Source: Loktanella sp.
GTDB taxonomy: Bacteria; Pseudomonadota; Alphaproteobacteria; Rhodobacterales; Rhodobacteraceae
Assembly: GCA_017390475.1 (NCBI GenBank)
Contig: JAFPBO010000013.1
Coordinates: forward strand, 227,701 to 291,700
Direction: 5' to 3'
DNA: 64,000 bases
The notes under the pieces: model-generated
Databases searched by the model: none
What the model saw: the letters and a program-made list of their open reading frames with translations, nothing else
Told to the model about the DNA's origin: nothing
Made by a program: the position numbers and the translations under genes
Part shown: positions 1,323 to 61,189 of the stretch, piece after piece
Layout of the letters: each line of letters opens with the position of its first letter
How positions within the stretch are numbered: the stretch's first letter is position 1

Positions 1323-1357
1323 CATCTTCCGAGCCCAAGTATCCCCGCCGGAGGCAT
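1323..1357 (-). repeat. Dispersed intergenic repeat, type A
   Basis: A 35-base copy of a repeat found several times in this window. It differs at only three positions from the copy at 23163-23197. Read on the minus strand it has a GC-rich inverted-repeat arm (GCCTCCGGCGGGG), a TA-rich core and the tail CTCGGAAGATG. It lies between the stop of dprA and the start of topA, so it would be in the transcript between two co-directional genes. Its function is unknown. Confidence 0.8.
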
Positions 1358-13214: not shown

Positions 13215-13247
13215 GCCTCCGGCGGGAGTATTTTTGGAAAAAAGAAG
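13215..13247 (+). repeat. Dispersed intergenic repeat, type B (left member of inverted pair)
   Basis: Starts with the GC arm GCCTCCGGCGGG seen in type A copies and ends with the type B tail (GGAAAAAAGAAG). Its last 24 bases are an inverted match, with one extra T, to 13386-13410. It begins 14 bases after the stop of the FAD oxidase gene. Confidence 0.75.
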
Positions 13248-22023: not shown

Positions 22024-23178
22024 ATGACCAGATTTACGCATGCGCAACCGGCTCCGACAACCCCCAAGCCGAAATTTATCGGCGCGGAAATCTATCGTGG
22101 TTCGACCTATGGCACCTGGCATCCGCTGCGGGTGCCGCGGGTGTCCACGGTGATGGATCTGACCCGTGCGCTGGGCTGGCTGCCTGCGGCGCAACTCATC
22201 ACCAGCCCGCGCGCGAAACTGGCCGCGTTGACGGGTTTTCACACATCCGGCTACCTCGCGGCGCTGCAAGCTGCCGAAGCGGCACAAAGCGTCACCGACG
22301 ACATCCGCGCGCGGCACGGCCTTGGCACACCGTCAAACCCCGTTTTCACTGAGATGTTCCGTCGCCCTGCCACCGCAGCAGGCGGGTCCTTGCTGGCGGG
22401 GGAATTGCTGCGGCATGGCGGAATCATCTATTCCCCCGCAGGCGGCACCCACCACGGGTTGCCTGACCGCGCCAATGGCTTTTGTTATCTCAACGACCCG
22501 GTGCTGGCGATCCAGTCCTTGCGGCGCAACGGGGCCCAGCGCGTGGCCTATATCGACATCGATGCGCATCACCCGGACGGTGTCGAACATGCCTTCGCTC
22601 ACGACCCCGACACGCTGCTGATGTCTACCCATGAGGTCAACCGCTGGCCGCGCACCGGCGCGCTGCATGATCAGGGCGCAGGTCAGGTCTTCAACCTGCC
22701 TGTCCCCGCAGGCATGCATGACGATGACATGGCGCTGATCCTGAATGAACTGATCCTGCCCGCCGTCACTGCCTTCCGCCCCGATGCCATCGTGCTGCAA
22801 TGCGGTGCTGATGCCGTGACCGAGGACCCGCAATCGCGGCTCTGCCTGTCCAACAACGCCCATTGGGCAGTAGTCGCGGCCCTACGCAACATCGCACCGC
22901 GCTATCTGGTGCTGGGCGGCGGCGGCTATAACCCGTGGTCGGTCGGGCGGCTGTGGTCCGGTGTTTGGGCGATACTGAACGACAATGAGATCCCGGATCA
23001 CCTGCCAGCGGAGGGCCAATCCATCCTGCGCGCCCTGCACTGGGACGGCATGACAAAGCGGCACCAACCACAGGACCATTGGATCAACAAGCTGCGCGAC
23101 ACACCCCGGCACGGCACGATCCATGATGAGGTCCGCGCAGGCGTCGCCCATCTGAAAAACCGCATCTTCCGAGCTTAA
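22024..23178 (+). CDS. Histone deacetylase / acetoin utilization (AcuC-like) family hydrolase
   Basis: A 384-residue zinc amidohydrolase of the HDAC/AcuC/acetylpolyamine amidohydrolase superfamily. GGTHHGLPDRANGFCYLND holds the catalytic His-His pair. DIDAHHPDGVEHAF and QCGADAVTEDP supply metal ligands, and LGGGGYNPWSVGRLW carries the transition-state tyrosine. The substrate could be acetylated lysine, acetylpolyamine or another amide. No Shine-Dalgarno site is visible before the ATG and a TATATAAC lies 8-15 bases upstream, so the transcript may be leaderless. The last residues (RIFRA) and the stop are encoded by a repeat element. Confidence 0.9.
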   Translation: MTRFTHAQPAPTTPKPKFIGAEIYRGSTYGTWHPLRVPRVSTVMDLTRALGWLPAAQLITSPRAKLAALTGFHTSGYLAALQAAEAAQSVTDDIRARHGLGTPSNPVFTEMFRRPATAAGGSLLAGELLRHGGIIYSPAGGTHHGLPDRANGFCYLNDPVLAIQSLRRNGAQRVAYIDIDAHHPDGVEHAFAHDPDTLLMSTHEVNRWPRTGALHDQGAGQVFNLPVPAGMHDDDMALILNELILPAVTAFRPDAIVLQCGADAVTEDPQSRLCLSNNAHWAVVAALRNIAPRYLVLGGGGYNPWSVGRLWSGVWAILNDNEIPDHLPAEGQSILRALHWDGMTKRHQPQDHWINKLRDTPRHGTIHDEVRAGVAHLKNRIFRA

Positions 23179-23197
23179 ATATCCCCGCCGGAGGCAT
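23163..23197 (-). repeat. Dispersed repeat, type A, overlapping two converging gene ends
   Basis: A 35-base copy, 32 of 35 identical to 1323-1357. The sequence TTAA at 23175-23178 within its core supplies overlapping TAA stops for both strands: 23176-23178 for the deacetylase-family gene and 23177-23175 for waaA. The element also encodes the last four or five residues of each protein. Confidence 0.85.
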
Positions 23198-32660: not shown

Positions 32661-32693
32661 GCCGCCGGCGGGGATATTTTTACTCGGAAGATG
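32661..32693 (+). repeat. Dispersed intergenic repeat, type A
   Basis: GC arm GCCGCCGGCGGGGA, TATTTTTA core and the CTCGGAAGATG tail. It fills most of the 69-base gap between the converging efp and ygfZ genes, ending 7 bases from the ygfZ stop. Confidence 0.8.
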
Positions 32694-46678: not shown

Positions 46679-49600
46679 TCAAGTGGGCGTTGTGCCGCCC
46701 ACCTCTGCCAGCAATGCGGCATTGCCGCCCGCCGCTGTCGTGTCGATGCAGACATGCCGTTCGTGGCTGGCATGGGCGGCGTCGGGCTGGCTGGTGATCA
46801 GCGCGGTGATCGGGCCAGAGCGTTGTGACAGGGCGGTCTCTATCTCCCGCCCGGTATCGGCATTGCCCCACCAGATCACGCCTGCCAAGGGGGAGAGGGT
46901 CGTCAGCGCCTCGTGCGGCAGGTCGCCATCCGCGCTGATGCCGACACCGCCCAAGGCGTTGATCGCCGCGACCTGATCTGCCGCAGCCGTGGCTCCTGGC
47001 CCCATGCAAAGCACCGGGCCGCGCGCGTGCAGACCGTGGCGGTTTGATTCGCCGGTGGGGCCGGGCAGGTCGGTGGGTGTCTGTGCCGGGGGCATTTTGG
47101 CCTCGGTGAGCTGTTTTTGTAGGCTGGTCAGGTCGGCGGCTTTGTCCCAAGCGCCATCCGCCGTGGCGGTCTTTGGTGCAGCAAAGCGGGGCAGGTAATG
47201 CGGCCCGCCCGCCTTTGGCCCGGTGCCGGACAGACCTTCACCGCCAAACGGCTGGCTACCGACAATCGCGCCGATCTGGTCGCGGTTGACGTAGATATTG
47301 CCTGCCTTGACCTTTTCGACCACAACCTGCACCCGGTCGTCGATACGGGTATGCAGGCCGAAGGTCAGACCGTAACCTATGGCATTGATATCATCGATGA
47401 CGCGGTGCAGATCGCGGGCCTTGAAGGTCGCGACATGCAGGACGGGGCCGAAAATCTCGCGCGTCATATCTGCGATGCCCTTCACCTTGATCACGGTGGG
47501 GGCGATGAAATGGCCTTGCGCGGGAACGTTGATTTGATGCAGGACACGACCGTCGCTGGCAGCCTGGGCGATGTGCTCTGCGATCGCCTTGTGTGCAGCG
47601 GCGTCGATCACCGGGCCGAGGTCGGTGGACAAAGCCCAGGGATCGCCCACGGTCAGTTCATCCATCGCGCCTTTGAGCATGGTCAGGAGTTTTTCGGCGA
47701 TATCTTCCTGCACATAAAGGCAGCGCAAAGCCGAACAGCGTTGCCCGGCCGACCGGAAGGCCCCGTTGATGATATCTCGCACGGCATGTTCGGGCAGCGC
47801 GGTGCTGTCCACGATCATCGCATTCAGCCCGCCGGTTTCGGCGATCAGCGGTGTGCCGGGCGCGCAATGTTGCGCCATGCTGGCGCGGATTTTTAGCGCG
47901 GTGGCGGTTGATCCGGTGAAGGCCACGCCGTTCACGCGGGCATCGGCGGTCAGGGCGGCCCCGACATCGCCACCTCCGGGCAGGCATTGCAGCGCACTGA
48001 CCGGCACGCCTGCAGCGTGCAGATGCTGCACGGCGCGGAAACCGATCAGCGGCGTCTGTTCGGCGGGTTTGGCCAGCACCGCATTGCCTGCAGCGAGGGC
48101 GGCGGACACCTGCCCCAGAAAGATCGCCAGCGGAAAGTTCCACGGGCTGATGCAGGTCCAGATGCCGCGCGCCTGCATCTCGGGCCTGGCCTGGGCGGCA
48201 TAGAAGCGCAGGAAATCCACCGCTTCGCGCAATTCGGCGACAGCGTCGGGCAGGGTCTTGCCCGCTTCGCGCGCAAGGATGGCGAAAAGCGTGTTGGCAT
48301 CTGCCTCCAGCGCATCGGCAGCTTTGTTCAGCACCTGCGCGCGGGTGCTGTATGGCGCGTCCCAGATCGCGGCGGTGGCAAGAGCATCAGCCACGTCATC
48401 CTGTGTGGCGGCGGTCACATGGCCCACGATGTCCGAGGGCAGCGCGGGATTGTGGATTGGGACAGAAGATGCTGGCCTCCGGCGGGGATATTTCGGCTCG
48501 GAAGATGTCAGGGGGCCTGCGACGAAGGCGGTGTCGCGCAGGAGCTCGCGGTCCTTGTTGATATGCCGGAGCGTGGGTTCATGGGTCAGGTCCCAGCCGA
48601 TGGAATTGATCCGTTCCGGGCGGAACAGATCCGGGCCTTTGGGCAGGTCAGGGCCTTGGCCGAGCTTGTCAAAGGGGCAGGCGGCGACCACATCTGCAGG
48701 GACGGATTCATCGACGATCTGGTTGACGAAGCTGGAATTGGCCCCGTTTTCCAGCAGGCGGCGGACCAGATAGGCCAGCAAATCTTCATGTGCGCCGACG
48801 GGGGCGTAGATCCGGCAGCGGGTGTTTTCGGCTTTCAGCACGATCGTATGCAGGGTTTCGCCCATGCCGTGCAGGCGCTGGAATTCGAACCTGTCAGTGC
48901 CGCGCCCCAGGATCTGCGCGATATCGAGCACGGCAGCGACGGTATGCGCGTTATGGGTGGCGAATTGCGGATAGATCCGGTCTGTCATGCCCAGCAATTT
49001 GCGGGCATTGCTGATATAGCTGATGTCCGTGTGTTGTTTGGCGGTGAAAACGGGGAAACCGTCAATACCCTGTACCTGGGCACGCTTGATCTCGCTGTCC
49101 CAATAGGCGCCTTTGACCAGACGCACCATGATATTGCGGTCCAGATCATTGGCCATCTGGTAAAGCTGGTCGATCACCAAAGGCGCGCGTTGCCCGTAAG
49201 CCTGCACCACCACCCCGAAACCGCCCCAACCGGCCAGCGCCGGATCTGCGAGCACAGCCTGAATCACGTCCAGCGACAGGGTCAGCCTGTCCGCCTCTTC
49301 CGCATCGATGTTAAAGCCCATGCCCGCGGCCTTGGCCTGCAAGGCCAGTGCGCGCAGGCGGGGCACCAGTTCATCCATGACACGCTGTTCCTGCGCCACC
49401 TCATAGCGGGGATGCAGGGCCGAAAGTTTCACCGAAATACCGGGATTTTCGGCGACCGATCCATATGTGCAATGCCCGGCGATGGTTGCGATCGCCCTGG
49501 CATAGGCTGTCTGGTAATGTTGCGCATCAGCGGCTGTCCGTGCCGCCTCGCCCAGCATGTCATAGCTGTAGGTGAAACCTTTCGCCTGCATGCCTTCGGC

Positions 49601-50152
49601 GCGTTTCATCGCCTTTTGAATCGTTTCGCCCAGCACGAATTGCCGCCCCATCTCGCGCATGGCGCGGCCGACGGCGGTGCGGATCACCGGTTCGCCCAGC
49701 CGTTTAACGGCAGAACGCAGGTGCCGCGTGATGCCGGGCTTTTCATCATCAAGCACACGACCCGTCAGCATCAGCGCCCAGGTCGAGGCATTGACCAGCG
49801 ACGAGGCCGAATGCCCCAGATGCTTGCCCCAGTCCGACGGCGCGATCTTGTCTTCGATCAGGTCATCCATCGTGTCGGCGTCGGGGACGCGCAGCAAAGC
49901 CTCGGCCAGACACATCAGCGCGATGCCTTCGTCGGTGGACAGGCCGTATTCGGCAAGAAACACCTCCATCAGCCCCGGATCGGCGCTGTTGCGGATCTGG
50001 GTGACCAACGCAGCCGCGCGGCCCGAAATGCGCGCGCGGTCGGTATCGGACAGGGCGGCGCTGCGCACCAGCGCTGTCACCGCGGCGGTTTCATCGCCGT
50101 AGATCTGGGCATTGATCGCATCGCGTAACGACAGGGCAGCATCACCGTTCAT
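46679..50152 (-). CDS. putA: Bifunctional proline dehydrogenase / P5C dehydrogenase
   Basis: Oxidises proline to glutamate in two steps with substrate channelling. The 1157-residue protein lacks the N-terminal ribbon-helix-helix of E. coli PutA, so it is not self-regulating. The FAD-linked PRODH barrel (about 180-480) has VKLSALHPRYE and GFNIDAEEADRL. The aldehyde dehydrogenase domain (about 565-1040) has FRSAGQRCSALRC with the catalytic cysteine. The C-terminal domain of type B PutAs ends TTAAGGNAALLAEVGG. Residues about 549-559 in the linker are encoded by a dispersed repeat. AAAAGGA precedes the ATG. Confidence 0.95.
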   Translation of the reverse strand: MNGDAALSLRDAINAQIYGDETAAVTALVRSAALSDTDRARISGRAAALVTQIRNSADPGLMEVFLAEYGLSTDEGIALMCLAEALLRVPDADTMDDLIEDKIAPSDWGKHLGHSASSLVNASTWALMLTGRVLDDEKPGITRHLRSAVKRLGEPVIRTAVGRAMREMGRQFVLGETIQKAMKRAEGMQAKGFTYSYDMLGEAARTAADAQHYQTAYARAIATIAGHCTYGSVAENPGISVKLSALHPRYEVAQEQRVMDELVPRLRALALQAKAAGMGFNIDAEEADRLTLSLDVIQAVLADPALAGWGGFGVVVQAYGQRAPLVIDQLYQMANDLDRNIMVRLVKGAYWDSEIKRAQVQGIDGFPVFTAKQHTDISYISNARKLLGMTDRIYPQFATHNAHTVAAVLDIAQILGRGTDRFEFQRLHGMGETLHTIVLKAENTRCRIYAPVGAHEDLLAYLVRRLLENGANSSFVNQIVDESVPADVVAACPFDKLGQGPDLPKGPDLFRPERINSIGWDLTHEPTLRHINKDRELLRDTAFVAGPLTSSEPKYPRRRPASSVPIHNPALPSDIVGHVTAATQDDVADALATAAIWDAPYSTRAQVLNKAADALEADANTLFAILAREAGKTLPDAVAELREAVDFLRFYAAQARPEMQARGIWTCISPWNFPLAIFLGQVSAALAAGNAVLAKPAEQTPLIGFRAVQHLHAAGVPVSALQCLPGGGDVGAALTADARVNGVAFTGSTATALKIRASMAQHCAPGTPLIAETGGLNAMIVDSTALPEHAVRDIINGAFRSAGQRCSALRCLYVQEDIAEKLLTMLKGAMDELTVGDPWALSTDLGPVIDAAAHKAIAEHIAQAASDGRVLHQINVPAQGHFIAPTVIKVKGIADMTREIFGPVLHVATFKARDLHRVIDDINAIGYGLTFGLHTRIDDRVQVVVEKVKAGNIYVNRDQIGAIVGSQPFGGEGLSGTGPKAGGPHYLPRFAAPKTATADGAWDKAADLTSLQKQLTEAKMPPAQTPTDLPGPTGESNRHGLHARGPVLCMGPGATAAADQVAAINALGGVGISADGDLPHEALTTLSPLAGVIWWGNADTGREIETALSQRSGPITALITSQPDAAHASHERHVCIDTTAAGGNAALLAEVGGTTPT
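48475..48507 (+). repeat. Type A repeat translated in frame inside putA
   Basis: A 33-base copy whose GC arm is GCCTCCGGCGGGGA and whose tail is CTCGGAAGATG, matching the intergenic copies. Within putA it is read on the opposite strand as SSEPKYPRRRPA, at the junction before the P5CDH domain (VPIHNPALPSDIVG). Confidence 0.82.
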
Positions 50153-50212: not shown

Positions 50213-50257
50213 TATGAATGTATTTGCAGGGCAATTAGATCAAAAGGCGGCGTTTTG

Positions 50258-50749
50258 ATGACTGAAAAGAATGGTGAACTGGATAAATTCGATAGAAAAA
50301 TCCTTGACGTTCTGGCGGTCGAGGGGCGGATCAGCATCACTGATCTGGCGCGCCGCATCGGATTGTCAAAATCGCCGACTCAGGCGCGGTTGCGCCGGTT
50401 GGAGGAAACCGGCGTGATCCGTGGTTATCGCGCACTTTATGATCCGATCCGGCTGGACCGTGACCATGTCGCCTTTGTCGAGGTGCGCCTGTCCGATACC
50501 CGGGAAAAGGCGCTGGCTGCCTTCAATGCCGCCGTGCTGCGGGTGCCCGAGGTCGAACAATGCCATCTGATCGCAGGGGCCTTTGATTACCTGCTCAAAG
50601 TGCGCACCGCGGGGATGAAAGGCTATCGCGCGGTGCTGGCGGAAAAGATATCGACCTTGCCGCATGTTGCCAATACGTCGACCTATGTCGCCATGCAGGC
50701 GGTCAAGGAAGAAGGGCTGTCGCCGGTTGCACCCAGCCCCGATGCGTAA
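50258..50749 (+). CDS. putR: Lrp/AsnC-family regulator (PutR-like)
   Basis: A 163-residue Lrp-type regulator. LDKFDRKILDVLAVEGRIS and ITDLARRIGLSKSPTQARLR form the helix-turn-helix, and the C-terminal RAM/AsnC effector domain includes VPEVEQCHLIAGAFDYLLKV. It is divergent from putA. In Rhodobacter capsulatus an Lrp-like PutR activates putA in response to proline, and the same arrangement here supports that role. ATG 50258 has AAGGCGG upstream. Confidence 0.88.
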   Translation: MTEKNGELDKFDRKILDVLAVEGRISITDLARRIGLSKSPTQARLRRLEETGVIRGYRALYDPIRLDRDHVAFVEVRLSDTREKALAAFNAAVLRVPEVEQCHLIAGAFDYLLKVRTAGMKGYRAVLAEKISTLPHVANTSTYVAMQAVKEEGLSPVAPSPDA

Positions 50750-61038: not shown

Positions 61039-61059
61039 CGTCATGGGGGGCTTGCCGAT

Positions 61060-61079
61060 ATCTTCCCCGCGGGGAAGAT
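61060..61079. repeat. Perfect 20-base palindrome, copy 1
   Basis: ATCTTCCCCGCGGGGAAGAT. It shares its central 16 bases with a second palindrome 108 bases to the right. Both lie in the 251-base gap between the converging metH and gbcB genes. Confidence 0.85.
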
Positions 61080-61167
61080 CGGTGATGCCTGGCATGGCCA
61101 GTTTGAACAGGGAGAGCCGATGCGGGGTGAAAAACCCGCGCGGGCGCATTTTCAACAGAGTGCGGAT

Positions 61168-61187
61168 ACCTTCCCCGCGGGGAAGGT
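61168..61187. repeat. Perfect 20-base palindrome, copy 2
   Basis: ACCTTCCCCGCGGGGAAGGT, 2 bases from the gbcB stop. Between the copies the only notable structure is GGGTGAAAAACCCGCGCGGG, a small hairpin; no gene is seen. Confidence 0.85.
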
Positions 61188-61189
61188 CG

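Follow-up and report, generated by a model that had tools for sequence, protein, structure and literature searches.

How does a repeat that otherwise lies mostly between genes come to be read in frame inside putA, and does the DNA or the protein set the residues that it encodes? The locus lies in a 64,000-nt stretch of Loktanella sp. DNA (the window), part of a 4.13-Mb genome in 56 contigs that is called G000 where genomes have to be told apart. A preliminary description of the window had placed a copy of a dispersed type-A repeat within the gene, and the following features frame the question.

46679..50152, − strand: putA, bifunctional proline dehydrogenase / P5C dehydrogenase, 1157 aa (from the ORF and Pfam domains)
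48475..48507, + strand: dispersed element (33 bp), type A, lying antisense to putA (boundaries from an alignment of 49 copies)
48476..48505, − strand: codons SSEPKYPRRR of PutA, encoded by the element

The repeat copy in the PutA linker

The 33-mer at 48475-48507 on the + strand is GCCTCCGGCGGGGATATTTCGGCTCGGAAGATG, and the exact type-A pattern gave 33 matches in the genome, the putA copy included, with none for the reversed pattern, confirming that the segment is a copy of a dispersed repeat lying in frame within putA. It is antisense to the gene, an orientation that the preliminary description does not mention, and its open frame suggests that the segment is translated into protein. The 33 bases comprise two bases of a T codon, the codons for SSEPKYPRRR and the opening base of the codon that follows; of the read-through peptide originally proposed, SSEPKYPRRR is thus encoded by the repeat, but the final "PA" falls just outside it. 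SSEPKYPRRR begins at residue 550, between the Pfam domains Pro_dh (residues 180-477) and Aldedh (562-994), in agreement with the proposed position at the PRODH/P5CDH junction. The best solved-structure match of the protein was PutA 5kf6. A gene divergent to putA (50255-50749, +) resembles, by eye, an Lrp/AsnC-type regulator.

PutA alignments covered 30 genomes and later 67 usable genomes of 70, and 147 linker rows were compiled, 67 from whole genomes and 80 from named loci, 12 of the latter representing the same genomes. In a weight-matrix scan, 17 of the 147 rows (15 distinct genomes) scored 32-57 bits, whereas the rest reached at most 6.6 bits and the maximum among 18,952 control windows was 10.5 bits; chance resemblance of the linker to the repeat is already excluded by these scores. 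Ordinary protein evolution, with a linker peptide under selection as protein whose likeness to the repeat is accidental, would be at ease with a variable linker in which odd residues are unsurprising. It is nevertheless hardly credible, both because of this gap in scores and because the peptide changes strongly between the spellings, or dialects, of the element (SSEPKYPRRR, SSCPENSGRR, SFCPQYSRRR and SYGDKYPRRR in PutA) while the DNA follows the dialect.

In all 17 rows, from 15 genomes, the repeat lies exactly 8 residues before NPA. Measured in one and the same frame, repeat-bearing linkers are 28 residues long (27 in locus L165). Once duplicates had been removed, 120 rows lacked a recognisable copy, and their linkers were of 23 residues in 80 cases and of 28 in 13. 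The gap of 11-12 residues that had been predicted for relatives did not appear: most relatives that lack the repeat had a gap of 5 residues in the alignments, being shorter and carrying unrelated residues at the site. Homologues thus do not all share the same residues here, which would have spoken against an insertion. The proposed in-frame insertion therefore stands as an extra in-frame segment at the domain junction, but with a net gain of five residues and no clean 33-bp insertion in the alignment. The net change is +5 and not +11 residues, and a portion of the former linker was replaced or lost.

Codon conservation of the putA copy was modest (31 of 1187 windows were equally good), which counts against the explanation preferred below. 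The notion that the repeat records a former junction between separate prodh and p5cdh genes was discarded, given its antisense orientation and the outgroup PutAs that are fused but lack it. In locus L039 (putA of G040), the frame is broken just upstream of the element, with two overlapping matches in different frames, through an assembly error or a real event.

Architecture, placement and spread of the dispersed element

Alignment of 49 dispersed copies revealed a conserved block of 33 positions with sharp boundaries, in which arms of 19 and 11 bp that hardly vary enclose a variable spacer of 2-3 nt, with variable flanks on either side; the copies were chosen by arm similarity, so that the invariance of the arms, though not the variable spacer or the sharp ends, arises partly by construction. 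The exact type-A pattern was present in 5 of 56 genomes of the genus, and the reversed pattern in none. A looser pattern with the core GGCGGG gave 83 matches in the 4.1-Mb genome against none reversed, and was found in at least 48 of 56 genus genomes and at least 142 of 198 family genomes (one per genus). These counts are lower bounds because other dialects carry GGCGGA cores. An apparent absence of the repeat family from G017, G011, G028, G036 and G046 was dropped for the same reason, these genomes carrying such other dialects. Besides the putA copy, the window contains the following copies.

1323..1355, − strand: dispersed type-A copy with one core substitution, 27 nt after a same-direction gene
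13215..13247, + strand: copy of another dialect (GAGTATTTTTGGAAAAAAGAAG tail); in G042, sequence matching the upstream flank of this copy is followed by an element of a different dialect (match on one side only)
23163..23195, − strand: dispersed type-A copy overlapping the ends of two predicted convergent genes
32661..32693, + strand: dispersed type-A copy, 30 nt after a same-direction predicted gene

Genes were predicted with a simple gene finder trained on the same genome. A same-strand gene lay on the 5' side of 39 of 50 type-A copies, 33 of which were in sense direction 6-36 nt past its stop codon, a placement found at 0.9% of random sites (6.6% of intergenic ones) drawn from the fetched stretches, themselves chosen around copies. 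The remaining copies had an opposite-strand gene on the 5' side (9 of 50, which counts against a gene-end signal) or lay wholly inside a predicted gene (2 of 50: the putA copy and a probable start misprediction in L094); seven more overlapped a gene end. Type A thus lies mostly between genes, as had been stated, and the putA copy is the only one of the 50 that is clearly in a gene. Among 32 copies sampled from eight other genomes, 18 were within 45 nt after a same-strand stop codon, 9 had an opposite-strand gene, 2 had none and 1 was in a gene. Type-A copies in G000 are often preceded by a GC hairpin or by A-rich sequence (AAAAACTTTTATG, for example), and the element may belong to a larger module at gene ends.

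Element matches occurred in 23 plasmid records. One match, in a Phaeobacter plasmid, falls between gcvP and gcvH and is antisense to the two genes, at odds with the gene-end rule; the two Paracoccus records examined are almost unannotated, so that the lack of an overlapping feature is meaningless there.

Intrinsic terminators lie at gene ends and combine a stable GC-rich stem with a run of T after it. Here, the gene-end placement was strong and the fold weak: the element alone gave −4.9 to −8.6 kcal/mol in four dialects on both strands, and windows around the copies averaged 0.75 sd below shuffles, with 9 of 50 below −2, both of which count against the preferred explanation. Terminator-like sites between 12600 and 32500 of the window were not more frequent than chance (23 versus 18.0 expected, sd 5.2), a further point against it, and one of them overlapped the copy at 13215. 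The weak fold of the isolated element thus does not reveal a classical terminator, and neither the fold nor the site count shows a stable terminator hairpin.

REP elements with their RAYT transposases carry a GTAG or CGTC tag beside a hairpin. The present element is likewise short, GC-rich, dispersed and mostly intergenic, but it is not a clear palindrome, and PF01797 (REP-type Y1 transposase) had no match in G000 and exceeded the cut-off in 8 of 56 genus genomes, which ruled out REP/RAYT as the driver. Phage or viral carriage was rejected because two element patterns had no exact match in IMG/VR and the element none in a phage collection. Rfam gave two tRNAs in the window at gathering scores and no described RNA family on the element. 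By title and abstract, the open-access literature searched, outside which most subscription papers lie, yielded no paper describing the element, and the short string GCCTCCGGCGG occurs in a few papers.

Inverted pairs of copies about 50-180 bp apart were seen in four genomes (G005:C11:169196/169372, G022:C1:1162889/1163049, G042:C2:24337/24497 and G166:C3:127410/127464). The window also holds a second repeat with a palindromic core (CTTCCCCGCGGGGAAG) at 61053-61081 and 61161-61189, and similar sequence follows element copies in L105 and L107.

Fixed addresses and changing spellings

The putA copies of nine genomes were each compared with dispersed copies of all nine. The nearest ones were those of the own genome in seven cases (one tie); the own genome ranked second for G002 and third for G038, and a random pairing did equally well once in 200,000. 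The panels were hand-picked subsets (9-19 copies per genome, 49 for G000), and the pairing tests, here and for cobN below, ignore relatedness. In the sister species G000 and G055, each putA copy matches the spelling of its own genome.

In a quick PutA tree of 86 rows, many of them fragments, a clade of 16 species (SH-aLRT 98) shares the 28-residue (+5) linker throughout. Five of its members have recognisable copies, in the A dialect in G052 and G038 and in the C dialect in G002, G003 and G004. The other 11 linkers, scored in a fixed register that replaced a scan-based test favouring longer linkers, are A-like in exact register (identity 0.45-0.61, p ≤ 0.002 in 10); the linker of G054, a 72% complete genome, fits better as C (p = 0.003) than as A (p = 0.017). 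The C spelling was also above chance, though below A, in some of these relics (G019, p = 0.006; G028, 0.009; G046, 0.010), and the A-like relics of G017 and G011 group with G004 (97). A single longer linker with two spellings and decayed relics argues that the spelling changed in place inside putA. Within this clade, the address is therefore common by descent, and the spelling was altered inside the coding gene, most simply from A to C. Decayed putA copies in G045, G006, G009 and G019, which have kept related dialects, count against the preferred explanation.

Over the whole tree, the minimum number of changes is 8 for a recognisable putA copy and 10 for the longer linker, which does not show a single origin for the whole family; outside the 16-species clade, loss, regain and gene exchange appear indistinguishable for the putA copy. 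The patchy distribution behind the first of these counts is what would be expected if the putA linker and a loop in cobN (below) were hot spots for recurrent independent insertion, each lineage receiving its own dialect with no rewriting in place. We regard such recurrence as unlikely: the distance to NPA is constant in 15 of 15 genomes, a whole clade has the longer linker with its diverged members relic-like in register, and intergenic addresses, too, are common between genomes. A comparison of 85 sampled copies yielded 14 pairs from different genomes, at 12 addresses, with homologous flanks (11 on both sides, 3 on one). The tails differed in all 14 pairs, which by reading comprise 7 of clearly different dialects and 7 of species variants of one dialect. 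Intergenic addresses are therefore, like in-gene ones, shared between genomes with changed spellings.

The second known in-gene address is cobN. A sampled copy of G007 lies inside this gene (TIGR02257), antisense and in frame, and is read as FILAKKLPPEA; G000 likewise has at least one further in-gene copy, of another dialect, in cobN. A search with cobN gave matches in 55 of 56 genomes of the genus and in 50 of 61 of the family, a part of the latter distant. Of the 69 genomes aligned, 49 had the element at the cobN address, antisense and in frame: 44 of 50 within the genus and 5 of 19 in other genera, xG121 and xG122 less exactly. The site is empty in other genomes (e.g. DPFI-HADGFALSIH in G012), and the loose pattern behind this count matched 7 times elsewhere in 197.6 kb of cobN DNA, both strands counted. 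In-frame occurrence in this second gene strengthens the idea of in-frame insertion that was first put forward for putA, and at both addresses the element is antisense.

The spellings at cobN vary between species, and among 30 loci some differ in length by one codon with the frame always open; dialects with different tail lengths join a common flank (mostly GGGTC, in some GGATC) and keep the frame. In 8 of 12 genomes, the cobN copy was nearest to copies of its own genome (3 uniquely, 5 tied with relatives), a match equalled in 0 of 200,000 random pairings of hand-picked panels of 10 copies per genome. The exceptions, which ranked other genomes first, were G007 (own genome at rank 2), G055 (3), G003 (6) and G004 (8); for G003 and G004, the panel search pattern would miss the dialect concerned. 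G000 and G016 have a rare cobN spelling in common (GAGTAGTT...ACAAAGCGAAG) while their nearest relatives G055, G029, G044 and G040 have type A or a variant, so that spelling and tree disagree within a close group. The cobN core GCCTCCGGC is replaced by CCCTCCGGG in G051, G027, G030, G034 and xG152 and by CCCTCGGGG in G033, the first and ninth bases changing together as if paired; this joint change hints at a small stem in the element.

A proposed gene-end signal, its possible respelling and known systems

Conserved addresses and genome-wide spellings, together with copies that lie in sense behind stop codons and antisense within genes, fit a strand-specific gene-end signal. The explanation we prefer, with a confidence that is about evenly balanced, sees in the putA segment an old copy of such a signal, in frame and antisense, its address inherited and its spelling rewritable to the dialect of the genome. 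The dispersed element occurs throughout a bacterial family that is mostly marine, and it would act in one orientation only, in transcription end or RNA 3'-end processing, through recognition by a putative trans-acting factor. In putA and cobN the element is reversed and would thus leave the mRNA of the host gene unaffected, and the in-gene copy may be tolerated as a translated loop or linker, a harmless passenger. Its spelling would at times be rewritten to match the other copies of the genome, taking the loop of the host protein along with it.

For the respelling itself, either a dedicated replacement process or selection with a co-evolving factor may be responsible, and ordinary gene conversion is unlikely because the shared homology is short, about 11 bp on one side. 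We propose only tentatively the more specific form, in which a trans-acting system of this bacterial family overwrites 33-36-bp elements at fixed addresses with the current dialect and so rewrites the PutA and CobN loops in frame each time the dialect changes.

A selfish mobile unit could produce the fixed addresses, the sharp boundaries and sweeps of one dialect if it targeted resident copies via the shared core GCCTCCGGCGG and replaced the rest, with gene-end placement reflecting tolerance and not function. The sharp 33-bp boundaries would suit it, as would the cobN dialects of different tail length on a common flank, in frame, and the short common core, only about 11 bp on one side, from which ordinary homologous conversion appears unlikely. 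We consider the selfish unit possible but doubtful, since the Y1 transposase and virus searches gave the results described above and since tolerance alone would not lead one to expect so strong a preference for the sense direction behind stop codons.

The loop residues appear to be set by the spelling of the DNA and not by the protein, with the warning that species differences in such loops need not mean protein adaptation. Common addresses with swapped spellings also provide fixed landmarks for studying repeat homogenisation within a genome.

An uptake-sequence-like motif, whose dialect is homogenised by molecular drive via DNA uptake as in Neisseria, would be an improbable alternative. In its favour, lineage dialects are described for the Neisseriaceae DNA uptake sequence, a genome-wide motif with intergenic copies at gene ends and others in genes (PMC3630211), as found here. 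That sequence is, however, a 10-12-mer in thousands of copies (PMC3630211), whereas the present element has 33 bp, about 80 copies, a bipartite structure with a variable spacer and dialects that differ by many bases.

The best-known case of dispersed repeats read in frame inside bacterial genes is that of Rickettsia, whose palindromic elements form a strong hairpin. The present case extends such reading to a short gene-end element in two metabolic enzymes outside the group of Rickettsia, and the parallel drawn in the preliminary description is only partly apt. In-frame reading inside protein genes is common to both (here in putA of 15 genomes and cobN of 49 of 69), but the putA copy is antisense, old in at least one clade and at a fixed address, and it has 33 bp and a weak fold of −4.9 to −8.6 kcal/mol in place of a strong palindromic hairpin. 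The Rickettsia elements are about 150 bp long and occur in many unrelated genes (PMC10969869). The element described here is found mainly at gene ends, changes its spelling between dialects, and has two known host genes in which its copies are antisense, clear in-gene copies making up 1 of 50 type-A copies in G000 and 1 of 32 copies in the eight other genomes.
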